A DNA stretch of 64,000 nucleotides from Nitrospirales bacterium (GTDB lineage Bacteria; Nitrospirota; Nitrospiria; Nitrospirales; UBA8639), in contig JAJDBM010000005.1 of NCBI GenBank assembly GCA_029261355.1, positions 62,001 through 126,000 of the forward strand. Reading direction: 5' to 3'. The number at the start of each line of letters is the position of its first letter. Position 1 is the first letter of the stretch. The notes under the pieces were generated by a model. The model was not told the DNA's origin, ran no database searches, and saw only the letters and a list, made by a program, of their open reading frames with translations. Positions 36,286 to 54,883 of this stretch are shown in pieces. The position numbers were made by a program, and so were the translations under genes.

Positions 36286-36456
36286 TTAGCTCACGGCCGT
36301 CATATTTGTAGAGATGGTGTTAAAAGTCGTGATAATCGTAGTACCCATCGTTTGAACCGCACCCATGATCACCGCCGCAATGAGCGCAGCTAACAATCCG
36401 TATTCCAAAGCCGTCGCACCCGTTTCGTCATTGATGAATATCCTGAGCATGTTCAT
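36286..36456 (-). CDS. flp: Flp/Fap-type pilin
   Basis: 56 aa from ATG 36456 (a second ATG at 36450). The sequence has the Flp prepilin pattern: a short charged leader, the peptidase recognition G-ATALEYG, then a hydrophobic helix LLAALIAAVIMGAVQ and a tail ending NMTAVS. The Tad prepilin peptidase would cut after the Gly preceding ATALEYG. The copy directly upstream (36515) is its closest relative here: both share INDETGATA and MGAVQTMGTTI. The pair forms a short unit separate from the five Flp genes at 50.5-51.9 kb. Confidence 0.92.
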   Translation of the reverse strand: MNMLRIFINDETGATALEYGLLAALIAAVIMGAVQTMGTTIITTFNTISTNMTAVS

Positions 36457-36514
36457 AGTCAATCCCGCATATTGAATATCAGGTATCCCAATCGTTTTCC
36501 GTTGAGCTCTATTC

Positions 36515-36685
36515 CTAACTAGCGGCAGTCATATTGCTCGAGATGGAGTTGAATGTTGTGCTGATCGTAGTACCCATCGTTTGAACCGCACCCATGATCA
36601 CTGCCGCAATGAGAGCGGTAAATAATCCATATTCCATGGCTGTGGCCCCAGTTTCGTCATTGATGAATGTTGTTACCTTAGTCAT
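36515..36685 (-). CDS. flp: Flp/Fap-type pilin
   Basis: 56 aa from ATG 36685, preceded by a long G-rich ribosome binding site (AAAGGGGGGG). The open frame extends upstream, but the Flp-type leader MTKVTTFINDETG fits this start. Motifs: GATAMEYG cleavage/recognition, hydrophobic helix LFTALIAAVIMGAVQ, tail SSNMTAAS. A sigma-54 promoter lies about 70 bases upstream (36754-36768), so this is the first gene of the two-pilin unit. Confidence 0.92.
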   Translation of the reverse strand: MTKVTTFINDETGATAMEYGLFTALIAAVIMGAVQTMGTTISTTFNSISSNMTAAS

Positions 36686-36753
36686 GATACGTCCCCCCCT
36701 TTGATGTCTCAGTTGTCTAATCTTTGTCTCCTCATCCATGAACTAATAATAGA

Positions 36754-38074: not shown

Positions 38075-39181
38075 TTAAATACAGGTACCCTGTCGTAGTT
38101 CTAAAGCCCTGCGTTGGAAACGGGGAAGTTTTAAAAGATCACGCTTGGCCAACTCAAGATTATTATTCGCTTTTTCATAATATGTCGGTTGGGCTTCGAT
38201 CGCCTCTTCAAAACATTTTATTGCTCGAGCTGATTTCCCTTCCTCTAGAAAAACAATGCCCAAGTTGTTATACGCTCTTGCGGCATCCATCCCTCCTTGA
38301 AACGCATCAAACGCCTCATCATATTGCCCCAACTTTGTATGCGCCAAACCAAGATTATTCCAGACTTTTGGATTGCTTGCCCCTGCCATTGCGGCCTGCT
38401 GAAATACCTGTACAGCCTTTTTAAAATCTTTGTTTAATAAATAGGCCATCCCTAAATTATTAAGCATGTTCGGATTATCTGGTTGAAACTCTAAAGCTTT
38501 TTGATAATGAACCATCGCTGTGGTGTGGTGATACCGACGATCAGAGATGATTCCAAGGAAATTATGTGCACTCCAAAGATTCGGATCAAATGCTAAGGCT
38601 TGAGAAAACTCAAGCTCGGCCTCCTTATCTTTTCCCATACGCAACAAAGCTCGTCCCATTCCTTCATAGGCTGGGGCATATTCAAAATCATAATCCAAAA
38701 TTTCGTGAAATCGCTCATAGGCCTTTTCAGATTTTCCATGTTCAAGATAGAGCCACGCAACTTTGTAACGAGCAGGAATTTTTTCAGGAACCATTTCCAA
38801 AGTCTTTTCATATTGCATGGCAGCCTGAACAATATGGCCCTGAGAAGCATGGGAGTCACCAAGTCGCTCATACTCTTCATCTGAAAATTCTGGAGTTTTT
38901 GTTGCAATCGGCATATTTTCAAGCAACATTCCAGCTTTTTGACGTTCGAGAATTTTCTGATAATGCTCATCTTCTGTCTGAAAGAGGGGTCCATCTGAGG
39001 CACAGCCTGCCAACAACCCAAGGCACACCATTATCATTAGAAAATAGTGGAAATCGTGAGAAAACTTGAATCGTAAGCTAATCGAATAGATTGCGCGTTG
39101 ACTGCCCCTTGCCTGGACATTCCCTTTGGATGGCATCAACTCGCTACCCTTATATTCTTGTGCACGAATTGTGTCTATCAT
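38075..39181 (-). CDS. tadD: Tad pilus assembly TPR lipoprotein
   Basis: 368 aa from ATG 39181, which has GGGAGGT 7 bases upstream. A hydrophobic segment ending LLAGC (a lipobox) appears only after about 60 residues, so the leader is unusually long; an internal start near that segment cannot be excluded. The mature part contains about seven TPR motifs (YERLGDSHASQG, ARYKVAWLYLEHG, AHNFLGIISD, MLNNLGMAYLLN, VWNNLGLAHTKLG, AYNNLGIVFLEEG). TadD is a pilotin-like TPR protein needed for secretin and pilus assembly. It is last in the assembly operon, 63 bases after TadC. Confidence 0.85.
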   Translation of the reverse strand: MIDTIRAQEYKGSELMPSKGNVQARGSQRAIYSISLRFKFSHDFHYFLMIMVCLGLLAGCASDGPLFQTEDEHYQKILERQKAGMLLENMPIATKTPEFSDEEYERLGDSHASQGHIVQAAMQYEKTLEMVPEKIPARYKVAWLYLEHGKSEKAYERFHEILDYDFEYAPAYEGMGRALLRMGKDKEAELEFSQALAFDPNLWSAHNFLGIISDRRYHHTTAMVHYQKALEFQPDNPNMLNNLGMAYLLNKDFKKAVQVFQQAAMAGASNPKVWNNLGLAHTKLGQYDEAFDAFQGGMDAARAYNNLGIVFLEEGKSARAIKCFEEAIEAQPTYYEKANNNLELAKRDLLKLPRFQRRALELRQGTCI

Positions 39182-39243
39182 TGCCTTACCTCCCACCTTT
39201 CTCCCCCATGTATGCATTGGGATTCTGCCATCTCTTATTCAAC

Positions 39244-40215
39244 TCAGCTTCCAGCCATAGCTGGAAAGACCTTACTCATCAGCAAAATGACTCCTGGCCC
39301 CATAATGACAATGAGGAGTGCAGGAAAAATACACAAGATAAGGGGGCCCATAAGTTTCACTGGAAGTTTTGCCGCCATTTCCTCAGCTTTCAATCGACGA
39401 TTCATCCGCATCGAATCAGAATGGACTCGCAAAGCCTGTCCAATACTTGTTCCAAAACGATCAGTCTGAATCAGCAAGGCGACTAGACTTCGAATGTCAT
39501 CCACATCAGTGCGTTCATTCAAGTTACGTAAGGCCTGTTCTCGCGTCAGTCCAGCCCGAAGCTCTAAACTCAGAATCTTGAATTCTTCTCCAAGATCTTT
39601 ATGTCCAATGCTAATTTCATCTCCAACTCTCGCAATGGCCTGATCGAGCCCAAGACCAGCCTCCACACACACCACCATCAGATCAAGCGCGTCGGGGAAT
39701 CCGTCAATGATTCGTTCCTTGCGACCACTCACTGCAGAACTGAGCCACAATTGAGGGGTATAGAAACCAATCATCGCACACAAGACCGTCCCACCAATAA
39801 AATACGAAACAGGCTTCCCTTTTGTGAGTTCGCCTCCAAACACAAAGAATACCCCGAGCAAAACTAATCCAAGAAAAATTTTAGTCCCCATAAATGTCAC
39901 AGGTGCCCGCGAACTCCGATACCCGGCCGTGACCAACATTTTCCGCAATCGAGATGTTTCCTCTTGATCTTTTGGTTTGTTGGCCTGGCCTAATCGTTCT
40001 AAGACTTGGAGGAAATTCGTTTTTAAATATCCCACCCCTTTCGCTTTTTGAGCTTCTCCCAGTGCCCCCTCTTTCTTACCTTTAATCCGCGCTCCCCATT
40101 CTTTCGCTCGACTTTTCGACTGGAGTAAAGAAAAGATGCTGACCAAACCAACTAAGATCAGCACAAACACTAAACCACTAATCAATATGGGAGTAAATTC
40201 CATTGATAAAGCCAT
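39244..40215 (-). CDS. tadC: Tad pilus inner-membrane platform protein
   Basis: 323 aa; the ATG at 40215 overlaps the TadB stop by one base. A T2SSF domain covers about residues 165-300 (FPDALDLMVVCVEAGLGLDQAI, RAGLTREQALRNLNERTDVDDIRSLVALLIQTDRFGTSIGQALR). Four membrane segments are visible (near 10-30, 105-125, 135-155 and the C-terminus). Together with TadB it forms the platform on which the TadA ATPase works. Confidence 0.93.
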   Translation of the reverse strand: MALSMEFTPILISGLVFVLILVGLVSIFSLLQSKSRAKEWGARIKGKKEGALGEAQKAKGVGYLKTNFLQVLERLGQANKPKDQEETSRLRKMLVTAGYRSSRAPVTFMGTKIFLGLVLLGVFFVFGGELTKGKPVSYFIGGTVLCAMIGFYTPQLWLSSAVSGRKERIIDGFPDALDLMVVCVEAGLGLDQAIARVGDEISIGHKDLGEEFKILSLELRAGLTREQALRNLNERTDVDDIRSLVALLIQTDRFGTSIGQALRVHSDSMRMNRRLKAEEMAAKLPVKLMGPLILCIFPALLIVIMGPGVILLMSKVFPAMAGS

Positions 40216-41192
40216 TAAATTTTGATGTTAATCATTTTCTTCACAACCACACCACCGATCGCCATCCATACCAAAGCCGTCCCTAACATGAGTTGCCCCG
40301 TTGGATCATTATAGAGGGGATCCATATATTCAGGATTAATCCACGACAAACCCACGAGTAGGAGTATCGGCATCGCCATAAGGACTATGGCTGACCATTT
40401 CCCTTCCGCGGATAATGCTTGAACCCGGCCTAACAGTTCGAAACGAAGACGAATAAGCCGACTAATGGCCTCGATGATCTCAGCTAAATTTCCCCCGGTT
40501 TCTCGTTGCACAATAAGGGCAGTCACAAAAAACTTTAAATCGACACATTCAATTCGCTTGGATAAACTTTTTAACGCCTCAGGAATATCAATTCCATAGG
40601 AAATTTCCTCAACTGCTCGTCCTATTTCCGGTCCAACCGGGTCTGGAAACTCATCACCCACCATCTTCATTCCAACAGAAAACGCATGTCCAGCCCGTAA
40701 GGCTCTGGCCATTAAATCCAAGGCATCAGGTAATTGCTTTTGAAATAACAAAAATCGTTTTTTTCGCTTCCACCGCATATACCCATATGGCAAAAAACTC
40801 CCAGCAACTGCGCCGCCCAACATCGCCAAAATACCAAGGTTGTACAAAGCGGCTGCGAGAGCCGCGAAACTCGCACAGACGACGGATATCAACACAAAAA
40901 TGCTCATGGGCATTTGACTATTCGCCTGCACCAATGTGAGCTCAACCGAAGATAGTTTGGTGATTTTTGACAGCAGAACATTGAGCCACTCCATATCACC
41001 CGTCGCACGCTGACGGACGATATTCAGCTGTTGTTCTTGAGCCTTCGGAGTCAATGCTCCAGCTGCTTGCCCTCGAAGCCGCCGCTTCACTTGTTTGTTT
41101 TGAGGACTTAGATAGGTGTGATACCCATAAAATATTCCTTCAATCAACAGAATGATACTCACGAACACGCCAATGCTAATGAGAATTTCCAT
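40215..41192 (-). CDS. tadB: Tad pilus inner-membrane platform protein
   Basis: 325 aa from ATG 41192, 42 bases after TadA. Hydrophobic N-terminal segment, two segments around residues 95-130, a T2SSF domain (LPDALDLMARALRAGHAFSVGMKMVGDEF, LKFFVTALIVQRETGGNLAEIIEAIS) and a C-terminal segment. The family's standard partner of TadC. Gene order tadZ-tadA-tadB-tadC-tadD is conserved in Tad loci. Confidence 0.94.
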   Translation of the reverse strand: MEILISIGVFVSIILLIEGIFYGYHTYLSPQNKQVKRRLRGQAAGALTPKAQEQQLNIVRQRATGDMEWLNVLLSKITKLSSVELTLVQANSQMPMSIFVLISVVCASFAALAAALYNLGILAMLGGAVAGSFLPYGYMRWKRKKRFLLFQKQLPDALDLMARALRAGHAFSVGMKMVGDEFPDPVGPEIGRAVEEISYGIDIPEALKSLSKRIECVDLKFFVTALIVQRETGGNLAEIIEAISRLIRLRFELLGRVQALSAEGKWSAIVLMAMPILLLVGLSWINPEYMDPLYNDPTGQLMLGTALVWMAIGGVVVKKMINIKI

Positions 41193-41234: not shown

Positions 41235-42548
41235 TTAAACATCATAGATTTTCGATGGGTCAAATACTTCTGGATCAATATCAATTCCCAACGCTTTAAA
41301 TCGCTCAACAAATTTTGGGCGAACACCAGTCATACTAAATCTTCCCTTCACCATTCGATTTTCATCCAATGCTGTCTGGTGAAATGAAAAGATCTCCTGA
41401 AGAGTTACAATTTCCCCTTCCATCCCGGTGATTTCCTGTAGGCTCGTCATTTTCCTTGTTCCGTCTGACAAACGAGTCATTTGCACAACAACATCAAGCG
41501 CTGAACTGATGTAGTGACGCAAGGCTTTCGTGGCAAGATTCAACCCTGCCATTGCCACCAGTGTTTCGACGCGAGTTAACGCATCACGCGGCGTGTTGGC
41601 ATGAATTGTTGTTAATGAACCATCATGACCTGTGTTCATGGCCTGAAGCATGTCTAAACATTCTCCTGACCGAACCTCTCCAAGCACGATACGATCTGGG
41701 CGCATTCGGAGTGTATTCTTGACCAACTCACGTTGACTCACTTCTCCACGGCCTTCAACATTCGGAGGACGAGTTTCCAGTCGAACAACATGGTCTTGCC
41801 GCAATTGAAGCTCAGCAGAATCCTCAATCGTAATGATGCGTTCATCTGATGGAATAAAGCTTGACAAAATGTTCAGAATAGTCGTTTTGCCACAACCCGT
41901 CCCTCCTGAAATCAAGATATTAAGTCTGGCTTCGACAATGCCTTTCAACAACGTGGCAATCTCTGGAGTGAGAGATCGTTTGGCCACTAAGTCTTCAATC
42001 TGTAACTTATCTTTGGAAAACTTCCGGATGGAAATTGAAGAACCATCTAAAGCAAGGGGAGGAATGATCGCATTGACCCGTGAGCCATCAGACAATCGCG
42101 CATCGACCATTGGTGACGACTCATCAACTCGTCGACCAATCGCAGAAACGATTTTTTCAATAATCTTTCGTAAATGCGTCTCGTCACGAAACTTAATATC
42201 TGTGGGCTGGAGCTTTCCTGCACGTTCAACGTAGATCCGGTCAGAGCGGTTGACGAGAATATCGTTCACCGTTGGATCTTGAAGTAATGGCTCCAACGGT
42301 CCAAGGCCCATCACTTCCCACTGTATTTCAGTGATCAGTTGTTCTCGTTCTTTGGCATTGAGGGGGACAGGTTCTTGCTCGAGAAATTTTTCAACCAGGT
42401 TGCTCAACTCGGTCTTTAAGAGCTCCTGGTCGAGCTTCGCAACGACCGACAGGTCAAGTGCTTCAATAACTTGACGATGCAGTCGTCCTTTCAGGTCTTC
42501 GAAGTTAGTCGCACCGGATCCGACTTGCTCCCAATCAGTTGCAATCAT
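41235..42548 (-). CDS. cpaF: Tad pilus assembly ATPase CpaF/TadA
   Basis: 437 aa from ATG 42548, with AAGGAGAG upstream. This is a type II/IV secretion ATPase. The N-terminal domain (residues 1-190) includes WEVMGLGPLEPLLQDPTVNDILVN; the Walker A is GGTGCGKT at about 215-222. The Asp box follows (TIEDSAELQL), then the Walker B/His box (RPDRIVLGEVRSGE and the TGHDGSLTTIHANTP motif). It powers Flp pilin extrusion and retraction from the cytoplasmic face. Confidence 0.96.
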   Translation of the reverse strand: MIATDWEQVGSGATNFEDLKGRLHRQVIEALDLSVVAKLDQELLKTELSNLVEKFLEQEPVPLNAKEREQLITEIQWEVMGLGPLEPLLQDPTVNDILVNRSDRIYVERAGKLQPTDIKFRDETHLRKIIEKIVSAIGRRVDESSPMVDARLSDGSRVNAIIPPLALDGSSISIRKFSKDKLQIEDLVAKRSLTPEIATLLKGIVEARLNILISGGTGCGKTTILNILSSFIPSDERIITIEDSAELQLRQDHVVRLETRPPNVEGRGEVSQRELVKNTLRMRPDRIVLGEVRSGECLDMLQAMNTGHDGSLTTIHANTPRDALTRVETLVAMAGLNLATKALRHYISSALDVVVQMTRLSDGTRKMTSLQEITGMEGEIVTLQEIFSFHQTALDENRMVKGRFSMTGVRPKFVERFKALGIDIDPEVFDPSKIYDV

Positions 42549-42583: not shown

Positions 42584-43831
42584 TTAGGCTGGAGCCACAC
42601 TTGGCTGACTCCGCTTACCTTTGACTGAATTCATCAAATTCCCCCAAAACGAACTTCCCTGAGAAATTGGTGAATCTTCGCGAAAGGATTGGGCCAACCG
42701 TTGATAGGTCTTCGTCAAAGGCGACCGAGGAGAAATCATCACAACTGGCTTGCCACTATTAATCGCATTACTCGAAGAAACATAATCATTCGGCAGAAGC
42801 CAATTGGCTTCTTGTTTTAATATTTCTTTGGTTTCGCTCAAGACATCTTTCTCATGTGGGAGATACCGGGTCACGACTAATTCAATTTTATCTTGAGGCA
42901 CTCCAGAGCCTCGTAACAATTCAAGAATACGTTTAGTCCGATGCACCACAGGGACCATAAGACTCGAGACCACCATGATACTCGAAGATAGTTCCAAGGC
43001 TTTTTTCGTCGTTAAATCTAAGACATGTCCACAGTCAATTACGACAAACTGAAACATGGCTTGAAGAAGCTTAATCGTGGGTTCGATACACTCAGGATTG
43101 AGACGTCCCGCACTCAAATCATCATAACCTGACGGCAATACATACACCCCAGACTCATGCTTAGTGAGCACACTCGTGAGAAAAGCCAAATCCACTCTCG
43201 TGAGATCAGCAGCAATATCCCGAAAACTATGCGTGGTGGGTAAATCCAAGTAGAGTGGAATATCACCGCCATGTTGATTCACATCAACTAAAACGACTGA
43301 CGGCTTACTTGTCCCCATATGAAGGCTCGCGGCCAAATTAACAGCAACACTAGTGGTCCCAGTCCCACCTTTACCTCCAAATAACGCTATCACCTTCCCG
43401 GAAGAGGCGTTCCCTTCTAGAGTGGTGGAACTATTTCGTGTCTGGAATCGTTCCAGTGATGCTTTCACCTCTTCAGGTTGAAGAGGCTGCGGAAGAAATT
43501 CCTTCATCCCTGAACGGAGCGCTTCTAATAAAATCGCCGAATCAGTTTTTGCTGAAGTCAAGAATACTTCAGTTCCTTTCGCAGAGCCTAAGACTGTTTT
43601 CACTAAAGAAAACGTTTTTTCAGGTTCTTCGTCTATCTCCAGTATCAACAGTTGAGGGATAACTGAATCTGCCGACTGTTTTAATGAGAACCCTCCATCT
43701 GCTCTTATAATCTCCTCTAATTTCTGTTTTACATCAGTAGAGGTAATCGCCAGTTCGACAATTGTGGATTGACTCGCCCCATCTGGTTTTCCTGCACCAA
43801 GACGAGATGGTCTCCAACTGGTGTCACTCAT
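42584..43831 (-). CDS. cpaE: Tad pilus localisation ATPase CpaE/TadZ
   Basis: 415 aa; the start overlaps the preceding lipoprotein gene by 4 bases. The N-terminal 130 residues form an atypical receiver-like domain (LLILEIDEEPEKT, LRSGMKEFLPQPLQPEEVKASL). Residues 150-400 are a MinD/ParA ATPase with the deviant Walker A GGKGGTGTTS, in which the usual Lys before Thr is replaced, as is common in CpaE. It positions the Tad machine at the pole or a membrane site. Confidence 0.93.
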   Translation of the reverse strand: MSDTSWRPSRLGAGKPDGASQSTIVELAITSTDVKQKLEEIIRADGGFSLKQSADSVIPQLLILEIDEEPEKTFSLVKTVLGSAKGTEVFLTSAKTDSAILLEALRSGMKEFLPQPLQPEEVKASLERFQTRNSSTTLEGNASSGKVIALFGGKGGTGTTSVAVNLAASLHMGTSKPSVVLVDVNQHGGDIPLYLDLPTTHSFRDIAADLTRVDLAFLTSVLTKHESGVYVLPSGYDDLSAGRLNPECIEPTIKLLQAMFQFVVIDCGHVLDLTTKKALELSSSIMVVSSLMVPVVHRTKRILELLRGSGVPQDKIELVVTRYLPHEKDVLSETKEILKQEANWLLPNDYVSSSNAINSGKPVVMISPRSPLTKTYQRLAQSFREDSPISQGSSFWGNLMNSVKGKRSQPSVAPA

Positions 43832-44218: not shown

Positions 44219-45679
44219 CTATGGAGCCACATGCCCAAACGTTCCATCTAACCCTCGTTGCTCCCAAGCCAATGTGCCAGACCGCGTTCCTTGCTTCATA
44301 CTCATCGATGATGGGACCCTTGATTGATGTGGAACACCTTCCACGTAACCGAGAAGCATTTGTTCAAAATCATTCGGTTCTAAATAAAAATCAGTCGGCA
44401 ATGGTTGCTTCGCCAAATCAAGAGGTTTGACCAAGCGAGGCGTAACAATAATCACCAACTCTGTTTCATTCTTCTGAAATTGAGAACTCCTGAACAGGGC
44501 ACCAAGAATAGGAATATCACCAAGAATAGGATACTTAGCGACGGTTTCTCTCACGTTTTCCTGTATTAGCCCTGCAATCGCAAAACTTTGCCCATCTCCC
44601 AATTCCAAGATAGTCGACGTCCTCCGTACAACTAAGGCAGGAATCGTAAACCCACCAAAATTCACTCCACTCGAAAAATCTAATTCTGAGACTTCAGGAG
44701 AAATTTTCAGCGAAATTTTGTCGTCACTTAACACAGTCGGATTGAATCCTAAGCGAACTCCATATTCTTTAAACTCAATCGTAGTCCGACCAAACGTCCC
44801 CGGCACCGGAATAGGAAACTCTCCACCAGCTAAGAAAGATGCTTCCTGCCCACTGATTGCAACAAGCGTTGGTTCAGCTAAGATTTTGGTAAGATTATTT
44901 TGCTTGAGAAAATCTAAAACAATATTCCAAAAAGTATCACCGATTGGGAAACCCAATAACGTTGAGGCTAGTGCTGATGGAAATAACGTCAAGTTGCCAC
45001 TTTGATCTTCTGTAAACGTCAATGTGTCGTTAAGAAGGCCAAATGAAAAATGAGTACCATCCGTTTCATGCCAACCGACCCCTAAGTTTCGTGTCAAACC
45101 ACGACTCATTTCAGCAATCTTGACCTCAAGCATCACTTGCTGCACGCCTCCGACATGAAGAAGATTCGAAACTTTTCCAGGGGCATAGGGTTCGGCCATC
45201 TCCATAATTCGAGTCATATTCTTGGCACTGCCTACCTGACCTGACACCGCGATACCATCATGTCCCCCAGTCACACGAATATTCTTCTCTTTGGGGAATA
45301 GTTGATGGAGTTGTGCTTTGAGTTTGGTCAAATCTGGAGACACCAATATATTAAACACATTCGATACTTGCTTATTTCTTCCCCATAAGGTCAATGTCGT
45401 TACTCCCAATTTCTTGCCAGTCAAGTAGACTTGTTTGGGAGAAAGAATTAACGGATCAGCTACTTCTGGATTGGCTATTGAAGCTCGTGCAAATGGATTG
45501 GGACTATCAATAATAATTGACGTCCCAACACCAATTTGAATGGTCTCAGGAACATTGGTTTTAACGGCTTGATGTGTCAACCCTTCTGCATGGACAAAAG
45601 ATGTGCAGAGGAAGACCAGAACAGCGACCAACATCACCACCTGATTCCATGTGAATCGGTAAATAAGTGGACGCCTCAT
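44219..45679 (-). CDS. cpaC: Tad pilus secretin CpaC/RcpA
   Basis: 486 aa from ATG 45679, which has AGAGGAG just upstream and a clear signal peptide (VVMLVAVLVFLCTSFVHAEG); the open frame continues to ATG 45742 without those features. The N-terminal pilus-assembly domain (TIQIGVGTSIIIDSPNPFARASIANPEVAD) and a BON-like segment (VTGGHDGIAVSGQV) are followed by the secretin core (ILAEPTLVAISGQEASFLAGGEFPIPV, VGFNPTV-type strand, LGDGQSFAIAGLIQ, PILGDIPILGALFRSSQFQKNETELVIIVTP). It forms the outer-membrane channel for the pilus. Confidence 0.95.
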   Translation of the reverse strand: MRRPLIYRFTWNQVVMLVAVLVFLCTSFVHAEGLTHQAVKTNVPETIQIGVGTSIIIDSPNPFARASIANPEVADPLILSPKQVYLTGKKLGVTTLTLWGRNKQVSNVFNILVSPDLTKLKAQLHQLFPKEKNIRVTGGHDGIAVSGQVGSAKNMTRIMEMAEPYAPGKVSNLLHVGGVQQVMLEVKIAEMSRGLTRNLGVGWHETDGTHFSFGLLNDTLTFTEDQSGNLTLFPSALASTLLGFPIGDTFWNIVLDFLKQNNLTKILAEPTLVAISGQEASFLAGGEFPIPVPGTFGRTTIEFKEYGVRLGFNPTVLSDDKISLKISPEVSELDFSSGVNFGGFTIPALVVRRTSTILELGDGQSFAIAGLIQENVRETVAKYPILGDIPILGALFRSSQFQKNETELVIIVTPRLVKPLDLAKQPLPTDFYLEPNDFEQMLLGYVEGVPHQSRVPSSMSMKQGTRSGTLAWEQRGLDGTFGHVAP

Positions 45680-45763
45680 TCCGACTCCTCTCTCGACCAT
45701 CTGATGCTGAGTACTTCGTGTATCAATCATGTTAGGAATCATACCTCGTGGAGCGATTTGCCA

Positions 45764-46588
45764 TTAAAATTTCAAGACACTCGTGGCGCTGCCTTTAATC
45801 ACTTCCACTCGTTCACGCAGTTTCTTCTTTGCCTTTTTGGGTGGTGCGGCCTGATAAGAAGCTTGAAGATCATTAAACGTCGCACCCCGTGTTTTCTTGA
45901 CTGCAATATTTAGAGGGCTTCTAAGAGCCAAGCGAATTTGCCCACCATTTGAAGCCATCGCAAGTTTTTCAGCTTCAATGAGTGTGACTTCAAACGTAAT
46001 AATTTTAACTGGGACCGGTTTTTCGCTTTCAACGACACGTTCCATCTGTGTACCGATAGCCAAGACCTTCATGTTTTCCAACGCCGTTTTCGTAATTTGT
46101 CCTTTTTTCCCATTGGCAAATGTCACCATAATATCGACTCGATCGCCAGGTTTTATAAAGCCCGGAAGTGCCACAACCTCATTAACCTTCACAGCCATGG
46201 CTCGTTTTGAAGGATCCAGAACTGCCGTAACTCCACCAGTTTTAATATCAATTGGTGCTAATTTCGATTCGAGGATCGGTTCGTTTCGTTTGACATGTGA
46301 CAATAAGACCCGTCCCTTCAAATCCTCCAATTTTTTAAAGTAACCGACAGGAAGACTTTCTTCGGGAAAGGGAACTTCACGAATCATTTCCTTCGTGATC
46401 GGAGTGCCCCAGGCCATATCCGTGCTTGCCACAGCAATAGTCACACCCTCAAAGGTCATGACCTGCTGTTCAACAACTTGAGGGGCTTGTTGCCGTTGTT
46501 TTTGAAACCAATTATACGCAAGGATAGCCGTCACAAGGGCAATCCCCACGGCTAAGCCTAAAAATACACCTGGCCGATTTTGGAACAT
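45764..46588 (-). CDS. cpaB: Flp pilus assembly protein CpaB/RcpC
   Basis: 274 aa from ATG 46588. A single membrane segment near the N-terminus (PGVFLGLAVGIALVTAILAYNWF) is followed by an SAF domain (VAVASTDMAWGTPITKEMIREVPFPEESLPVGYF, RVLLSHVKRNEPILESKLAP) and the CpaB-specific C-terminal half (VDIMVTFANGKKG, TLIEAEKLAMASNGGQIRLALRSP). Members bind peptidoglycan or align the secretin with the inner-membrane machine. Located between the peptidase and secretin genes as usual. Confidence 0.94.
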   Translation of the reverse strand: MFQNRPGVFLGLAVGIALVTAILAYNWFQKQRQQAPQVVEQQVMTFEGVTIAVASTDMAWGTPITKEMIREVPFPEESLPVGYFKKLEDLKGRVLLSHVKRNEPILESKLAPIDIKTGGVTAVLDPSKRAMAVKVNEVVALPGFIKPGDRVDIMVTFANGKKGQITKTALENMKVLAIGTQMERVVESEKPVPVKIITFEVTLIEAEKLAMASNGGQIRLALRSPLNIAVKKTRGATFNDLQASYQAAPPKKAKKKLRERVEVIKGSATSVLKF

Positions 46589-46747: not shown

Positions 46748-47281
46748 TTATAGATTCGTCGCGTCTAACCACCGCCAAGCTTGGGAACCCAATGCCCCTA
46801 ACCCAATCACGAGTCCATACCGCAACTTAGGTTGATTGCTTTCTGCACTGGATGGCGTCGCCACAACCCTCGTCACCAACCAAGTTGTCAAGATTACCTT
46901 CACTCGCTCAGCAGTACTAGGTAATCCCCAGGTCAACACCATGAGTCCAACGGCATAAAGACCTCCCAAACAGGACGTCATAAGAAAGGCGATAAAGACA
47001 TCGTAGGGGCCAATGATGGCACCAACGGCACTCAATAATTTGACATCCCCCGCCCCCATACCGCCTAACATGTAAAAGATAAGGAGCAACCCGAACCCAA
47101 GCGCTAAACCTTCGAGACTAAAGAGCACTCCCTCAACACCGTCAGATATGCCGTGAATGATCAAACCGATACTGGCCAATGGAAACGTAATAATGTTTGG
47201 GATTTTACTTGAACGAACATCCGTAACGGCTGCTCCAATTAAGGCAAATGACAAAATGGAAATTAAAAAGATATACGTCAT
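46748..47281 (-). CDS. cpaA: Prepilin peptidase CpaA/TadV (A24A)
   Basis: 177 aa from ATG 47281. A multi-pass membrane aspartic protease with the two catalytic Asp residues in TDVRSSKIPN (Asp 21) and GGMGAGDVKL (Asp 79), the GxGD form of type 4 prepilin peptidases. The short length without an N-methylase domain is typical of Tad loci. It processes the seven Flp prepilins and the TadE-like pseudopilins encoded in this locus. First gene of the assembly operon that runs to tadD. Confidence 0.95.
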   Translation of the reverse strand: MTYIFLISILSFALIGAAVTDVRSSKIPNIITFPLASIGLIIHGISDGVEGVLFSLEGLALGFGLLLIFYMLGGMGAGDVKLLSAVGAIIGPYDVFIAFLMTSCLGGLYAVGLMVLTWGLPSTAERVKVILTTWLVTRVVATPSSAESNQPKLRYGLVIGLGALGSQAWRWLDATNL

Positions 47282-47539: not shown

Positions 47540-48967
47540 TTACACTTGAATTAATCGTAACTTAATATTTTTGGCGATTTTTTGAAACAACTCTTGTAGT
47601 TCGCCAGACGTCGGAGCAAGGTAGGTAAAAGCCTCGCCACTCGACATGTCGGCCAGAAGCTCTTCGTCCAAACTACTCCCTAACCCAATCGTGTAGACCT
47701 TTATTCCACTGCCCTTGAGCTCTTGAGCATGATCCAAAGCCATTTGCTTAGCCTGATCATTCACATATTTGACCATACTATTAATCGGAGTCGAACAATG
47801 CTCGTCCCCATACCCTGAAATCGGTGAACCAGAGTAATTCTTCCCATAATCTGGATCCTGAATAATCCACCATTTCATAGTATAGTACCCACATGCTGAA
47901 GAAGAATCGGGAAGTCCATCACCTGTTCCATATTGCTTCGCATAACTACCTGAAATATTCGGAAGCTGTGAGCCATCATAAGGGTCGTACAGGCGAGCAT
48001 CCGAACTGGAACTCCCTGCAACAACAACATCCGGCTCGTGCGTCGTTTCGTTCACTTTATTGATTCCGCCCCGTGTAAAGAGACGATAAGGTGTAGAGTT
48101 TGGATCATAGGTGGCACGAAATGCGGTTGGCTTCCCATCAGTAAAAAATACCAGAAATTGTTGAACTCGTTGATCACCTGGAACATTAGATTGATCGGTG
48201 AACCCTGATGGACCGTCAGCTTGATCGATGGCATCTTCCATATTCGTCCACCCTGATGCCGACATTAAATTAATTTTTATTTTCATATCATCAACGAAAT
48301 TATGCGCTAAAGGCTCATCAACTTTTACCGCAGTCGAATAACTAATTAACCCAAGCTTATCCTCACTTTGAGAATCCTCAAAATAATCCACAAAACTTTT
48401 GGCCGCCTCTCGAAGATCCCCTATTTCTTGGGACATGGATCCCGATCGATCTAACACAAGCATGATTTCTACATCCCGCTTTTGGGCTCCACCCAGAGAG
48501 CCCACATGGGTACTCGCATATTGTCCAGGGTTCGAGCTGGATTCAAGTGTTCTCGCGGCATAGTTCGCCACATCCGTATCGCCAGAGACAATAACTTTCC
48601 CATCAACGACTTGACCTGTCATGGCAATCACCGGAGCATCAGCGCCAAAGAACCCAGGGACAAAATTGGCTTCACCAACAGCCTTCACTAACTCATTTAA
48701 CCCCTCACCAGCGCCAACCCCAAAAAAGTCATCAAGATAAGGGTTCGAAATATTTCGTGCCCCTAATAATGAAGCCGCATCAACCGCCTTAGAGAGTTCA
48801 GCACGTACGATATACCATCGCCCCGCTTCAACGCCCAAAGCAATAAACCCAAACAACGCCGCGAGGGAGAGTGCCGTTGTCACGGCAAACATCCCATGCT
48901 CATTGCGAACAGACTTTCCCGTCTTGCACCGGAACCATCGTGTTATTGTTGAAAAATCAAATTTCAT
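47540..48967 (-). CDS. tadG: TadG-like protein with von Willebrand factor A domain
   Basis: 475 aa from ATG 48967, which has AGAGG 7 bases upstream. The N-terminal TadG-type pseudopilin segment (HGMFAVTTALSLAALFGFIALGVEAGRWYIVRAEL) is followed by a vWA domain with a complete MIDAS: DRSGSMS, a Thr in SASGWTNMEDAI, and FFTDGKPTAF. A long Gly/Ser/Tyr-rich insertion sits between the strands, and the domain ends LKGSGIKVYTIGLGSSLDEELLADM. It may sit at the pilus tip and act in adhesion or metal-dependent binding. Confidence 0.88.
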   Translation of the reverse strand: MKFDFSTITRWFRCKTGKSVRNEHGMFAVTTALSLAALFGFIALGVEAGRWYIVRAELSKAVDAASLLGARNISNPYLDDFFGVGAGEGLNELVKAVGEANFVPGFFGADAPVIAMTGQVVDGKVIVSGDTDVANYAARTLESSSNPGQYASTHVGSLGGAQKRDVEIMLVLDRSGSMSQEIGDLREAAKSFVDYFEDSQSEDKLGLISYSTAVKVDEPLAHNFVDDMKIKINLMSASGWTNMEDAIDQADGPSGFTDQSNVPGDQRVQQFLVFFTDGKPTAFRATYDPNSTPYRLFTRGGINKVNETTHEPDVVVAGSSSSDARLYDPYDGSQLPNISGSYAKQYGTGDGLPDSSSACGYYTMKWWIIQDPDYGKNYSGSPISGYGDEHCSTPINSMVKYVNDQAKQMALDHAQELKGSGIKVYTIGLGSSLDEELLADMSSGEAFTYLAPTSGELQELFQKIAKNIKLRLIQV

Positions 48968-49086
48968 AATGATCCTCTTGTTTCTATTCTCAGCCATTCA
49001 GGTTCTTGTCCCACGGATTCCATTGCCTCGACAACCCATCCGAGCCAGTACAATTAGCTACGTCGTTGCTTCTGACAATACACCTC

Positions 49087-49761
49087 TTAAAATATGGCCT
49101 TGCTACTAACTAAAAATGAATCATATGTAGGAAGTTCTGGAGGAATCGGGTTCAAACCAGAGCTATCAAAATTCAGAATCGTCACATCCCCATTCCCAAA
49201 ATACGGAGCTGTTTTTAACAGACTAGACAATGGCGTTAGTGGGTCATGTCGATAGTAGATTTTGACAATTGTTAACTGCGTGAGGAGTGTAGTTTCAATG
49301 CTCGCATCATACTTCAACATATTCCATAACGTCTGAGTCAAACCACAATTGTCATCTTCAAGAGGCGTGGTGATGCCAATGCCACTCAAATTACCACTTT
49401 CCTGATACGAACAAGTCGGCTCTATATCTCCACTGTCTCCAGCATCAACTTTAGTGATATAAATTTTAAATCGTAAATCCTGCACCGATTGAATACAATT
49501 GGCATCATCACTCGGACAAGTAAAATTCAATGGCCAAGTTGAAGCCTCTAACAAATTTAACAAGTCACTGCCATTCTTAAGATCCCGAGATGCTAAACTC
49601 CCACCTTCTCGCGTCACATTCGAGACCACAGCCTGGGCCTGAATGATTGAACCAAATTCCACGATACCAAAGGCCAATACCATGATGACCCCTGCGATAC
49701 TCATAAACTCCATACTTGCCATGCCGTGTTGTGATCGTATGGTTGTTGTTCTTATGTTCAT
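49087..49761 (-). CDS. TadE-like pseudopilin
   Basis: 224 aa. ATG 49761 follows the previous stop without a gap (TAG-ATG). A short basic leader is followed by the TadE signature GMASMEFMSIAGVIMVLAFGIVEFGSIIQAQAVVSNVTREGGSLA, with the peptidase Glu at position +5 after the Gly. The rest is a Cys-containing domain of about 180 residues (CPSDDANCIQS, CSYQESG, DDNCGL). It probably forms part of the pilus tip or base with the other TadE and TadG. Confidence 0.88.
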   Translation of the reverse strand: MNIRTTTIRSQHGMASMEFMSIAGVIMVLAFGIVEFGSIIQAQAVVSNVTREGGSLASRDLKNGSDLLNLLEASTWPLNFTCPSDDANCIQSVQDLRFKIYITKVDAGDSGDIEPTCSYQESGNLSGIGITTPLEDDNCGLTQTLWNMLKYDASIETTLLTQLTIVKIYYRHDPLTPLSSLLKTAPYFGNGDVTILNFDSSGLNPIPPELPTYDSFLVSSKAIF

Positions 49762-50292
49762 CTAAGCCTCCGTCGATGTGTCAAAGAGTTCGTTGCGGTA
49801 CGTACCCTGAGCCCGCATATTGATCGTCCCGCCATCCGAGAGAATTGGTCCAATCAAAGGGGTCAAAAATGTATGTTCGTACTCCACAACGACTCGCAGA
49901 TAATCTGCAGGATTGCCTACATTTGGAGCAGCTGTTTCCCACCCCTCTGGGTTTTGGTAATTATCTCCTACAACAAAGATCGAAATATCATCGGTATCAA
50001 TGTCCATCGCCCATGCAGCATTTTCTTGAATCGTTTTCACGATAGAGGCTTCCCGGCTCAGGGGGTCACCATTTTCATCATTCACAACACCACCGACTAA
50101 GGCCATCCTCATTCCCTCACGAGTGGCATATTGCAGAGTATGTTCATGAAAGAAGTACCAACCAAATTCAAACACTGAGAACAAGAGGAGTAAAAACGGG
50201 AGCAGTAACGCACCCATTTCGATCATGGTACTCCCTCGAGAATTCTTTAAATCTTTACCCCATGAGCTCGTCTTTGGATCTGTATTTTCCAT
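49762..50292 (-). CDS. tadE: TadE-like pseudopilin
   Basis: 176 aa from ATG 50292. The N-terminal part has the TadE pattern RGSTMIEMGALLLPFLLLLFSVFEFGWYFFHEHTLQYATREGMR: cleavage after Gly, Glu at +5, then the hydrophobic helix. The C-terminal domain (VVGDNYQNPEGWETAAPNVGNPADYLRVVVEY, TYRNELF) is also found as the relic at 37402-37632. Directly coupled to the next TadE-like gene. Confidence 0.9.
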   Translation of the reverse strand: MENTDPKTSSWGKDLKNSRGSTMIEMGALLLPFLLLLFSVFEFGWYFFHEHTLQYATREGMRMALVGGVVNDENGDPLSREASIVKTIQENAAWAMDIDTDDISIFVVGDNYQNPEGWETAAPNVGNPADYLRVVVEYEHTFLTPLIGPILSDGGTINMRAQGTYRNELFDTSTEA

Positions 50293-50560: not shown

Positions 50561-50746
50561 CTAACTAGCTGCGCTCATATTTCCGGAAATGGTATTGAAG
50601 GTTGTCCCAATACTATTCCCCATTACTTGCACGGCACTGATAATCACGGCTGCAATAAGGGCGGTTAATAGTCCATACTCCAAGGCCGTAGCCCCATCTT
50701 CGTTTACCAGAAGTGTCAGGATCTGCACAGTCATGTTGTTGCTCAC
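50561..50746 (-). CDS. flp: Flp/Fap-type pilin
   Basis: 61 aa from GTG 50746, chosen because AGGAGG lies 10 bases upstream; ATG 50734 is an alternative start 22 bases from that site. Flp pattern NEDGATALEYGLLTALIAAVIISAVQ, tail ISGNMSAAS. It is the most diverged of the five tandem copies (VMGNSIGTT instead of TLGNVVSTT). A 30-base near-perfect inverted repeat sits just before its ribosome binding site. Confidence 0.9.
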   Translation of the reverse strand: MSNNMTVQILTLLVNEDGATALEYGLLTALIAAVIISAVQVMGNSIGTTFNTISGNMSAAS

Positions 50747-50765
50747 GAATGAACTACCTCCTCTA

Positions 50766-50795
50766 TTAGGTGAAAACAAGATTGTTTTCACCTAA
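50766..50795. promoter_or_regulatory. Inverted repeat before the last tandem flp gene
   Basis: Two 14-base arms (TTAGGTGAAAACAA / TTGTTTTCACCTAA) with a 2-base centre, starting 3 bases upstream of the AGGAGG of the Flp gene at 50561-50746. The symmetry suits either an operator for a dimeric regulator or a hairpin that influences translation or mRNA stability. Confidence 0.6.
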
Positions 50796-50983: not shown

Positions 50984-51160
50984 CTAACTCGCGGAGGTCA
51001 TATTGGCTGCAATCGTATTGAAGGTTGTGCTGACGACATTTCCCAGAGCTTGTACTGCTCCAATAATGACAGCTGCAATAAGAGCGGCCAACAAACCATA
51101 CTCCAAGGCCGTAGCCCCTTCTTCATCACAAAGAAATATTCGCATGTGATTACCCATCAT
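50984..51160 (-). CDS. flp: Flp/Fap-type pilin
   Basis: 58 aa from ATG 51160 (a second ATG at 51157), with AGGAG 4 to 7 bases upstream. Reads as a leader MMGNHMRIFLCDEEG, then ATALEYGLLAALIAAVIIGAVQ and a tail ending TIAANMTSAS. It carries a Cys in the leader, which the other copies lack. Confidence 0.92.
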   Translation of the reverse strand: MMGNHMRIFLCDEEGATALEYGLLAALIAAVIIGAVQALGNVVSTTFNTIAANMTSAS

Positions 51161-51245: not shown

Positions 51246-51419
51246 TTAACTCGCGGCCGTCATATTAGCGGCAATGGTATTAAAGGTCGTACTCACCACG
51301 GTTCCAAGCGTTTGCACCGCCCCAATGATCACCGCTGCGATAAGAGCGGCTAACAATCCATACTCCAACGCCGTAGCTCCATCTTCATTCGACATAAATG
51401 CTTGGATATTATTCATCAT
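51246..51419 (-). CDS. flp: Flp/Fap-type pilin
   Basis: 57 aa from ATG 51419 behind AGGAG. Leader MMNNIQAFMSNEDG, recognition ATALEYG, helix LLAALIAAVIIGAVQ, tail TIAANMTAAS. Nearly identical in the mature part to the two copies upstream (TLGTVVSTT against TLGNVVSTT). Confidence 0.93.
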   Translation of the reverse strand: MMNNIQAFMSNEDGATALEYGLLAALIAAVIIGAVQTLGTVVSTTFNTIAANMTAAS

Positions 51420-51493
51420 GTCACTCCTGTTCTCAGTTGGTAATTCCAATAAATTGACTGCCACACATTAATCCCCACGTACAATCTTGGGTC

Positions 51494-51667
51494 TTAGCTC
51501 GCGGCCGTCATATTGGCGGCAATGGTATTAAAGGTCGTACTCACCACGTTTCCAAGCGTTTGCACTGCCCCGATGATCACTGCTGCGATGAGAGCGGCCA
51601 ACAGTCCATATTCCAAGGCCGTTGCACCGTCTTCTTCAGTGAGAAATGCTTGAATGTAGTTCATCAT
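51494..51667 (-). CDS. flp: Flp/Fap-type pilin
   Basis: 57 aa from ATG 51667 behind AGGAG. Leader MMNYIQAFLTEEDG, then ATALEYG and the shared helix and tail. From the ATALEYG motif to the C-terminus the protein is identical to the copy at 51745-51918. An intrinsic terminator lies between the two. Confidence 0.93.
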   Translation of the reverse strand: MMNYIQAFLTEEDGATALEYGLLAALIAAVIIGAVQTLGNVVSTTFNTIAANMTAAS

Positions 51668-51744: not shown

Positions 51745-51918
51745 TTAGCTCGCGGCCGTCATATTGGCGGCAATGGTGTTAAAAGTTGTACTCACCACGT
51801 TTCCAAGCGTTTGCACTGCTCCGATGATCACCGCTGCGATGAGAGCGGCCAACAATCCATATTCCAAGGCCGTTGCGCCTTCCTCATCACGGACGAATGT
51901 AGAAATTTGTGTGATCAT
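51745..51918 (-). CDS. flp: Flp/Fap-type pilin, first of the tandem array
   Basis: 57 aa from ATG 51918 with GGAGAG upstream. Leader MITQISTFVRDEEG, recognition ATALEYG, helix LLAALIAAVIIGAVQ, tail TLGNVVSTTFNTIAANMTAAS. As the promoter-proximal copy with a terminator directly behind, it is the best candidate for the major pilin. It lies 129 bases downstream of the 121-aa ORF and about 550 bases from the c-di-GMP riboswitch. Confidence 0.93.
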   Translation of the reverse strand: MITQISTFVRDEEGATALEYGLLAALIAAVIIGAVQTLGNVVSTTFNTIAANMTAAS

Positions 51919-52047: not shown

Positions 52048-52413
52048 CTAAGCCTGGACTCTTTGATGAGCCCATTGACGTATCGTCACAGACTCACACT
52101 TTCGTTCAAGCTCAGGCATCTTCTCAGGCTGAGCTGACATACTCTCATCAGTCTTCTCTGCAAAACATTGAAAATCTCGCAAGAATTTTCTCGTCAGCCG
52201 CTCATGCTCCTCAGCCCAATGGAGACTTGCTCTTTGTTTATTTCCGGAAATACAGAAAGATGAGCACGTAAGAAGAACCGACTCGTCCCGGGTATAAGCC
52301 CTCTGCTGACAAGAAACGTGAGAATATTGAAGATGGCGCTTGCGGGACATACCGTTCCATCGGTATGCCTGAAGAGACGTGACGTGAAACCTCAACCAGA
52401 ATCTTGTGGGCAT
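52048..52413 (-). CDS. Unknown 121-aa basic, Cys-containing protein under the c-di-GMP riboswitch
   Basis: ATG 52413 has an excellent ribosome binding site (GGAGGA, 7-base spacing) and is the first start after the riboswitch aptamer. The product has no signal peptide or membrane segment. It is basic in its first half (RKRHLQYSHVSCQQRAYTR), contains five Cys, and has a charged, probably helical second half (WAEEHERLTRKFLRDF, PEKMPELERKCES). I recognise no family. It could be a regulator or accessory factor of the Tad locus, or the frame could be an untranslated leader that happens to be open. The strong start signal favours translation. Confidence 0.55.
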   Translation of the reverse strand: MPTRFWLRFHVTSLQAYRWNGMSRKRHLQYSHVSCQQRAYTRDESVLLTCSSFCISGNKQRASLHWAEEHERLTRKFLRDFQCFAEKTDESMSAQPEKMPELERKCESVTIRQWAHQRVQA

Positions 52414-52833
52414 GATTTGTTCCTCCAAATACTTATGGAACTCATCCCGGAAAGATTCTTCGCTAACTCCTTCGGTAACCCGGCTATCAGGTTGTATCCT
52501 GATCCGTGGTTTTGCGCCCCTGCTTCACAGCAGGTATGCCGTTTCGGGAGAGAGTTCTATTCAGTTGTGCTCTGGTTATCGGACGTCCGATTGAAAACTT
52601 GACCAATAATTAGATAAAAAAATTTCATATGTGAATATTGATTTCCATTACAAACCATTGGAGTTAACTAATACAGGTAAAAGAACTTCACAGCCACTCA
52701 ATCCCACAACCTTCAGGTTGCTTCGCCCTCATGGCATCACTCAAGATGCATCAATTTCGACCGACCATGTAATCAAGAACTATTTTCAATCGACTCAAAT
52801 CGATCACTTCACCTCACCCAAGTAATACCAGTT
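52414..52833. other. Divergent regulatory region (420 bp)
   Basis: This holds the riboswitch and a 14-base palindrome (ATCGGACGTCCGAT, 52578-52591). On the minus strand there is a possible -35/-10 pair (TTCACA, 17 bases, TAATTA) around 52601-52629. On the plus strand it leads into the glycosyltransferase gene at 52834. A 64-codon plus frame at 52631 lacks a ribosome binding site and is not called. Confidence 0.5.
52464..52557 (-). ncRNA. c-di-GMP-I (GEMM) riboswitch
   Basis: Read on the minus strand, the aptamer core is unmistakable. GGCATACC leads into a stem capped by the GNRA tetraloop GTGA (TGCT-GTGA-AGCA), then GGGGCGCAAAACCACGG, a second hairpin ATCAGG / CCTGAT, and the closing AGCCGGGTTACCG. 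These are the conserved GEMM-I blocks in the right order. The base equivalent to G20 of the Vibrio Vc2 aptamer is G, which favours c-di-GMP over cGAMP. P1 can form from AACTC and GAGTT. Downstream, GTTCC (52441-52437) can pair with GGAAC inside the ribosome binding site of the 121-aa ORF. A second GAGTTC (52443-52438) could compete for the 5' P1 strand. This suggests translational control. Confidence 0.93.
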
Positions 52834-54057
52834 ATGTTGCTCAAATCCATTGATACTCAATCTTCTGATCTTCCGATCACTCTTGTTCCTCCAAATGCCA
52901 GCCAACCTGAAGTTTCAATTATCTTGCCCTGCCTGAATGAGGCCAGAACCCTTGAATCATGCCTACGCAAAGCGAATCTAGCGCTCGCCACTGACCATCT
53001 ACATGGAGAAATTATCGTAGCGGACAACGGGAGCCAAGATGGATCACAATCTATTGCTCTTAGATGCGGTGCCCGTGTGGTACCCGTGGAGGAGCGAGGG
53101 TATGGTGCCGCACTCATTGCAGGTATTGGTCAAGCCAATGGACAATTCATCATCATAGGTGATGCCGATGACAGTTATGATTTTTCAGTAATTTCCCCTT
53201 TTATTGTAAAACTTCGAGACGGCCATGATCTGGTCATGGGGTGTCGTTTGCCAAAAGCTGGAGGGACTATCGCCCCCGGTGCCATGCCGTGGCTTCACCG
53301 ATGGCTCGGCAATCCAATGTTGAGTGGTATTGGAAGGGCCTTTTTTCACTGCCCTGTCACAGACTTCCATTGCGGCATGCGCGCCTTTCGTCGAGACACC
53401 TATCTCTCAATGAATCTTCGGTCGACAGGAATGGAATTCGCCTCGGAAATGGTCATTAAGGCCACTCTGATGAACGCTAGGATTACTGAAATCCCTATCA
53501 CGCTTCATAAAGACGGACGTGATAGAGACCCTCATTTGAGAACATGGAGAGATGGGTGGCGTCACCTTCGCTTCATGCTCCTCTACTGTCCACGTTGGCT
53601 GTTTATTGTCCCAGGGCTCAGTCTCTTTTCAGTAGGAATGGTGATCGGCACATTCCTCCTACCTGGCCCAATCGCCATCAATGACGTCACCTTTGACACC
53701 AATACCCTACTACTCGCAAGTATGTCCGTTTTGATTGGATTTAATCTCATAACCTTTGGCGTTTTTTCGAAAGTCTTCGCCACATCCGTAGGACTTCTTC
53801 CAAGAGATCACTTGTTCGAAAAAACAATTGCAGGAAGTTCGCTTGAAATGGGAATCGTAATTGGAGCAGTCGTATCGCTTCTGGGAACTGGGCTTTTAGC
53901 CCTTGGGATGTGGCATTGGCATCTCCAGGAATATGGACCACTTTCTTACCCTAGTAGTCTTCGTCTCATTATTCCCGGCACCACTGCGTTAACGCTCGGC
54001 ATTGAAATTATTTTTTCAAGTTTTTTAATGAGTTTATTGTTGATGTCTCGTAAATAG
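52834..54057 (+). CDS. Family 2 glycosyltransferase with C-terminal membrane helices
   Basis: 407 aa from ATG 52834. The N-terminal 240 residues are a GT-A fold like dolichyl-phosphate sugar synthases: VSIILPCLNEARTLESCL, EIIVADNGSQDGS, the metal-binding GDADDSYDF, and the acceptor-site region TDFHCGMRAFRRDTY with SEMVIKA. Four C-terminal membrane segments (LFIVPGLSLFSVGMVIGTFLL onward) anchor it. It would transfer a sugar to a polyprenyl phosphate at the cytoplasmic face, feeding the GT-C enzyme encoded at 54884. The methyltransferase gene follows on the same strand. Confidence 0.9.
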   Translation: MLLKSIDTQSSDLPITLVPPNASQPEVSIILPCLNEARTLESCLRKANLALATDHLHGEIIVADNGSQDGSQSIALRCGARVVPVEERGYGAALIAGIGQANGQFIIIGDADDSYDFSVISPFIVKLRDGHDLVMGCRLPKAGGTIAPGAMPWLHRWLGNPMLSGIGRAFFHCPVTDFHCGMRAFRRDTYLSMNLRSTGMEFASEMVIKATLMNARITEIPITLHKDGRDRDPHLRTWRDGWRHLRFMLLYCPRWLFIVPGLSLFSVGMVIGTFLLPGPIAINDVTFDTNTLLLASMSVLIGFNLITFGVFSKVFATSVGLLPRDHLFEKTIAGSSLEMGIVIGAVVSLLGTGLLALGMWHWHLQEYGPLSYPSSLRLIIPGTTALTLGIEIIFSSFLMSLLLMSRK

Positions 54058-54138
54058 AGACACCAAACACTTGAAGATTACCTGAGATGCGGTCTGAGCA
54101 AGGGCATCTCATCTTAGCCTGGAAAGAAAGACAGTATC

Positions 54139-54864: not shown

Positions 54865-54883
54865 CTCAACTTCATACCGATGC

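Follow-up and report, generated by a model that had tools for sequence, protein, structure and literature searches.

Gene content of the locus and identity of the aptamer

The window, i.e. the whole stretch of 64,000 nucleotides analysed here, harbours a 16-kb Tad pilus locus with a complete gene set, downstream of a c-di-GMP-I (GEMM-I) aptamer and on the same (minus) strand. The aptamer (52470..52550) is followed by a 121-residue orphan open reading frame (ORF; MPTRFW..., 52051..52413), which is the first frame after it, and then by five Flp pilin genes. Pilin 1 (51745..51918) matches PF04964, and pilin 2 (51494..51667) has the same motif; pilins 3, 4 and 5 are encoded at 51246..51464, 50984..51160 and 50561..50791. 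The next genes code for a TadE-like minor pilin (49762..50292; PF07811), a second TadE-like protein (49087..49761; PF07811), a TadG-like protein with a VWA domain (47540..48997; PF13400, PF00092), the prepilin peptidase TadV/CpaA (46748..47281; PF01478), RcpC/CpaB (45764..46588; PF16976) and the secretin RcpA/CpaC (44219..45742; PF00263, PF13629). They are followed by genes for a TadZ/CpaE-like ATPase (42584..43831; PF13614), the TadA/CpaF ATPase (41235..42548; PF00437), TadB (40215..41192) and TadC (39244..40215), the latter two being both T2SSF proteins (PF00482) told apart by gene order only, and a TadD-like protein with matches to TPR families (38075..39217). Thus, Flp, TadE, prepilin peptidase, RcpC, secretin, CpaF and TadB/TadC are all encoded on one strand, with Pfam scores above the cut-offs. 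The earlier note, made from the sequence alone, had described a 16-kb Tad locus with five tandem pilins. The present analysis bears this out and adds two Flp genes past the TPR gene, pilin 6 (36515..36739; PF04964) and pilin 7 (36286..36462; PF04964), which close the locus at its far end. It resembles Tad/Flp type IVc pilus loci in its complete gene set and differs from them by its seven Flp genes, its orphan leader ORF and its riboswitch leader. Genes for a glycosyltransferase, a methyltransferase and a weakly STT3-like membrane protein adjoin the Tad locus (52834-56764), and glycosylation of the pilins by their products is possible.

A scan of the whole window with the Rfam models kept one match, a lower-ranked match of the same clan having been dropped. 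It is a full-length match (model positions 1-80) to the c-di-GMP-I-GGC family RF03167 at 52549-52470 on the minus strand, with 62.4 bits (E 2.4e-12) for a gathering cut-off of 59 bits. The general model RF01051 matches the same site (G000:C5:114471-114550, i.e. 52471-52550 of the window) with 67.6 bits (E 7e-13), for a gathering cut-off of 35 bits, and has no match in any of 14 control genomes. The conserved blocks GGCATACC, GCGCAAAACCACGG and AGCCGGGTTACCG and a GUGA loop of the GNRA type are all present, and the leader folds better than shuffled sequences (z -2.96). In this class, a G at the site of guanine contact makes for specificity to c-di-GMP rather than cGAMP. This residue, the G before the C in GGC, which we take to be G20 in Vc2 numbering, is a G in the window aptamer and in all 120 readable members of the family. 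The aptamer also has the surroundings of a 5' leader element, with a promoter-like site upstream and a ribosome-site hairpin downstream.

It is quite improbable that we are dealing with a degenerate representative of the class, or one with an altered ligand, that is blind to c-di-GMP. The ranking of RF03167 above RF01051 by E-value in cmscan points that way, but RF01051 gives the higher bit score, the ligand-contact G is retained, and in the Rfam alignment the window has GCAAAA, with an A at a consensus G, where the RF03167 consensus reads GCGAAg. Because GCAAAA replaces the GCGAA stretch of the RF03167 consensus, we assigned the aptamer to the general c-di-GMP-I class. Judged by its sequence, the segment 52550-52470 is a genuine class-I c-di-GMP riboswitch that is expected to bind c-di-GMP. 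The earlier note had recognized such a riboswitch on the minus strand by its conserved GEMM-I blocks and by the G that selects c-di-GMP, and had named the lack of a covariance-model match as an outcome that would speak against it. Instead, two models match above their gathering cut-offs, the blocks are all there, and the selecting G is in place and kept among the relatives.

The FliA-type promoter and the conservation of the leader

The sequence TCAAGTTT-TCAATCGGACG-TCCGATAA (52576..52602, minus strand), about 25 nt upstream of the aptamer, has the form of a promoter for a sigma28 factor of the FliA type. This TCAAGTTT-N11-TCCGATAA arrangement consists of a -35 box of the TAAAG type and a -10 box of the GCCGATAA type, 11 bases apart. 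It predicts a transcript start upstream of the aptamer. The assignment as a FliA-type promoter is based on exact searches, likeness to flagellin promoters and conservation. The exact motif AAGTTT-N12-CCGATAA occurs at three sites in the 4.63-Mb genome, vs ~0.14 expected by chance (9.3 Mb on both strands divided by 4^13), and two of the three are located directly upstream of GEMM-I aptamers, in the Tad leader and on contig C24 (53 nt upstream). The third site lies in the window at 24349-24325 (minus strand) and precedes the ATG start codon of a response regulator gene (ORF 24275-23730) by ~75 nt. The flagellin promoter of the same genome, TCAAGTCC-N11-TCCGATAA, has the same form as the Tad leader site, as do those of the flagellin genes of relatives.

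To score such sites, the motif TMAAG-N15-CCGATAA (maximum 12) was searched up to 130 nt upstream of each GEMM-I aptamer. The window promoter scores 12 of 12 and is conserved in four relatives of the same genus. Of the 123 GEMM-I loci, 59 score at least 10; the reverse strands of the 123 loci gave no such site, and a set of 829 control windows gave one in ~1% of cases. The match is perfect upstream of 24 loci. Therefore, the GEMM-I loci of this family in general, and not those of Tad alone, tend to follow FliA-type promoters. All 23 Tad-linked GEMM-I aptamers have such a site upstream, with scores of 10 to 12 and spacers of 11 or 12. In Nitrospira-like genomes, the -10 form GTCGATA is common to flagellin and Tad promoters, with GACGATA in its place in one of the four flagellin genes. 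A weak sigma70-like site at 52635-52606 might suggest that sigma70 transcribes the operon and that the FliA-type site is coincidental. This is very unlikely given the three exact sites for ~0.14 expected, two of them adjoining GEMM-I, the enrichment across the family with identical spacing, and the GTCGATA form common to Nitrospira-like flagellin and Tad promoters.

The Tad-linked aptamers were found by crossing the positions of GEMM-I with those of RcpC/CpaB and then reading the loci. The 23 loci, a count that takes in those on broken contigs with the same leader, belong to 20 genomes of one family of Nitrospirales, whose nearest named record is NPIRA02. In 14 relatives, a distance of 2-6 kb separates the aptamer from CpaB, which is downstream of it on the same strand, with Flp genes shown in between. 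This co-linearity across the family makes chance adjacency unlikely. Three layouts are found: the aptamer precedes the leader ORF in the genus of the window and in G008; it overlaps the end of the ORF, ~95 nt before flp, in the Nitrospira-like genus g9 and in G011; or there is an aptamer at both places, as in G006, G009 and G015. In three leaders (L054, L055 and L056), two GEMM-I aptamers are ~540 nt apart, one before the ORF and the other over its end.

The leader ORF and the predicted switch

The earlier note had placed the riboswitch ahead of the lead gene of the Tad locus. It does head the locus, but the first ORF is the 121-residue orphan and not a pilin gene. The orphan has no Pfam match, and plain sequence searches of 60 relatives returned no credible homologue. 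Behind aptamers of the first layout, positional counterparts of 96-183 residues are present in eight other genomes, and a position-guided comparison of these proteins revealed almost nothing in common beyond the motif WxxEHxxxTxK (W codon at 52218-52216 in the window). Of the 23 Tad-linked leaders, 19 retain the motif, and since its codons vary synonymously among them, the ORF looks translated. A leader ORF is present in every layout. In leaders L042-L056, it is a fast-evolving frame between the promoter and the flp genes, and in the Nitrospira-like genomes it extends across the aptamer itself.

We also considered that the riboswitch might act only on the product of the orphan ORF and be merely a neighbour of the pilin genes, which would use a promoter of their own. 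The ORF directly follows the switch and has a good ribosome site, it carries the conserved WxxEHxxxTxK motif, and pilin 1 starts ~130 nt past its end. However, 11 Nitrospira-like loci have their aptamer ~95 nt before flp, overlapping the end of the ORF, a sigma70-like scan of the minus strand returned no promoter between the aptamer and pilin 1, and the protein sequence is hardly conserved. We therefore regard this explanation as improbable and favour control of the pilin genes through the leader.

How the aptamer might act on the leader is suggested by the sequences that flank it. The element GAACUC (52552..52557), on its 5' side, is complementary to GAGUUC (52443-52438) and forms the 5' strand of a helix that we call P0; it can also pair with GGAGUU just after the aptamer. 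GAGUUC is part of a strand, GAGUUCC (52437..52443), characterized by folding, by constrained energies in 10 leaders and by a covariation test. This strand is a pivot, with either GAACUC or the GGAAC of the ribosome-binding site as alternative partners. In the predicted OFF fold, it covers the Shine-Dalgarno region GGAGGAAC (52419..52426), identified by sequence and folding. An outer helix would close this hairpin; its 5' strand is GAAUCUU (52452..52458) in the minimum-free-energy fold, and its predicted 3' strand, AAGAUUC (52399..52405), is just within the leader ORF.

P0 is a covarying helix. Over 60 loci, the mean complementarity score is 18.2 for true partners vs 14.0 for swapped partners, and its locus-specific versions include GAACTC/GAGTTC, GAAGGCTCC/GGGGCCTTC, TGCCCCTT/AAGGGGCA and GCCGAGGACC/GGTCTTCGGC. 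The complementarity of the pivot to the ribosome site is only modestly locus-specific (14.4 for cognate pairs vs 12.1). State-constrained folding of the window leader gave a near balance of the two states in the absence of the native aptamer (B-A -0.5 kcal/mol). With the native aptamer imposed, the covered ribosome site has an advantage of 8.1 kcal/mol, as the extended P1 takes up the 5' element GAACUC. The coupling exceeds +1.5 in seven of 10 leaders and has the opposite sign in two (G002 and G015). The equilibrium accessibility of the ribosome site was unchanged in 51 leaders between P1 forced and P1 forbidden; that computation therefore cannot give the direction of the switch, and our call is based on the constrained state energies, which are suggestive only.

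No terminator-like site was found on the minus strand between the aptamer and pilin 1, and we therefore rejected an intrinsic-terminator mechanism for this leader; terminator-like hairpins are present at other GEMM-I loci of this genome. An effect on the pilins would thus need polarity or coupling. The Nitrospira-like genomes, with their aptamer ~95 nt from flp, have a platform different from that of the window leader.

We consider it likely that the Tad leader combines a c-di-GMP-I riboswitch, a FliA-type promoter and a three-strand OFF platform. FliA would transcribe the leader in motile cells. The transcript would then choose between P0 (GAACUC:GAGUUC), which leaves the ribosome site free, and the hairpin in which GAGUUCC covers the Shine-Dalgarno sequence of the leader ORF. 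GAACUC is taken up by the extended P1 of the aptamer once it is folded and ready for its ligand, so that c-di-GMP is expected to shift the leader towards the covered state. At low c-di-GMP, the leader ORF would be translated and expression of the pilin genes would follow; as c-di-GMP rises, the aptamer would close and translation of the ORF would drop, and expression of the pilins with it. The link from ORF to pilins could be translational coupling in L045, where the stop codon of the ORF overlaps the flp start, and polarity at the other loci. The net result would be Tad pili in flagellated cells with low c-di-GMP and their shut-off at high c-di-GMP. The conservation of the arrangement suggests that this family links its swimming to c-di-GMP and to the assembly of pili.

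As to direction, the modelling tips the balance slightly towards translational OFF control with c-di-GMP. In the converse arrangement, a P1 helix stabilized by c-di-GMP would stack with P0, hold GAGUUC upstream and free the ribosome site. Such an ON switch would raise Tad expression with c-di-GMP, as expected for an adhesin. The strands of P0 and of the P1 core are next to one another, and on paper both can form at once (B+N structures). The coupling is negative in G002 and G015, where P0 is favoured with the native aptamer, and some relatives possess a 5' hairpin in competition with P1 that would free the 5' element upon binding. In the window leader, however, combining P0 with the native aptamer costs 8 kcal/mol relative to the covered state, and seven of 10 leaders have the opposite coupling. 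An ON switch thus appears rather unlikely, and we retain the OFF direction.

Known systems, a second FliA-family sigma factor and other GEMM-I loci

The window aptamer shares with GEMM-I riboswitches (RF01051 and its variant RF03167) the sequence, the three-helix architecture, the GNRA loop and the ligand-contact G, as well as a position in the leader of a gene for a surface structure. In contrast with known GEMM-I riboswitches, it has P0 and a predicted three-strand translational platform, with a FliA-type promoter just upstream. In Bdellovibrio, the tad operon is under FliA control, as shown with an Escherichia coli reporter, and the Tad pilins have a promoter of the TTAAG-N16-CCGATA type in common with flagellin (PMC5430801). 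The FliA-type promoter is thus as in our window; unlike for the window leader, no riboswitch is mentioned in that work (PMC5430801). Bdellovibrio FliA is an attack-phase, global regulator (PMC3627812). This bacterium has its c-di-GMP riboswitch in a distinct RNA, the merRNA, which Table 2 of the same report (PMC3627812) does not mark as driven by FliA. Each component is thus already known: the class of riboswitch, the Tad pilus and, from Bdellovibrio, tad genes driven by FliA. A search of the open literature, which includes a minority of subscription papers, for c-di-GMP riboswitches together with sigma factors, Tad pili or Nitrospira returned no report of this combination. We conclude that the finding is genuine and conserved; as a riboswitch class it is ordinary, and its wiring is unusual.

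Nitrite oxidizers of the Nitrospira type live in biofilms and flocs. In the literature searched, we found nothing on how they change over from swimming to attachment and back. A c-di-GMP riboswitch and a flagellin-type promoter on a Tad pilus locus make this decision directly testable.

Six GEMM-I loci are present in the 4.63 Mb of the window genome, along with two FliA-family genes above the family cut-off. The second FliA copy, on contig C61, scores 199.5 bits with TIGR02479 (cut-off 189.6). This paralogue (G000:C61:193226-192129; leader L079) is 127 nt downstream of a GEMM-I aptamer, in a leader with a terminator-like hairpin. The same arrangement, at 127-220 nt, is found in 20 of 22 genomes, and the flagellar FliA gene follows GEMM-I in none of 21; in G008, a GEMM-I aptamer was searched for before the paralogue and not found. 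The paralogue is present in 22 of 23 genomes of the family with GEMM-I, vs none of 14 genomes without GEMM-I at that similarity. In Streptomyces, the FliA-family sigma factor WhiG is held by the anti-sigma factor RsiG bound to c-di-GMP. Both WhiG and the C61 paralogue would thus be FliA-family sigma factors under c-di-GMP, through a protein anti-sigma route in Streptomyces and through a riboswitch in the leader of the sigma factor gene here. If active, the riboswitch-controlled paralogue would give c-di-GMP a riboswitch route to the control of sigma factor levels.

The Tad promoter could be a target of either sigma factor. In G010 (99% complete), flagellin and the flagellar FliA were not found, and the paralogue is kept along with GEMM-I loci behind CCGATA sites, which favours the paralogue as the reader of at least the CCGATA sites of that genome. 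The GTCGATA form common to flagellin and Tad in the Nitrospira-like genomes points rather to the flagellar sigma factor reading Tad. As a tentative proposal, c-di-GMP riboswitches might form a two-layer circuit, acting both on the FliA paralogue and on the many riboswitch leaders that FliA-type promoters would drive, including that of Tad. Such a circuit, for which we hold just as guarded a view, could be read as a feed-forward loop of riboswitches joined to flagellar assembly via the classical FliA.

At other loci of the same genome, GEMM-I aptamers with terminator-like hairpins precede response-regulator/histidine-kinase operons (G000:C10:222812 and G000:C24:125270; L076 and L078), such that c-di-GMP may feed into two-component signalling. 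Yet another aptamer (G000:C52:78862-78941; L075), with a FliA-type promoter and a near-perfect ribosome-site hairpin, precedes the gene of a large repeat protein that is secreted and may be an adhesin.
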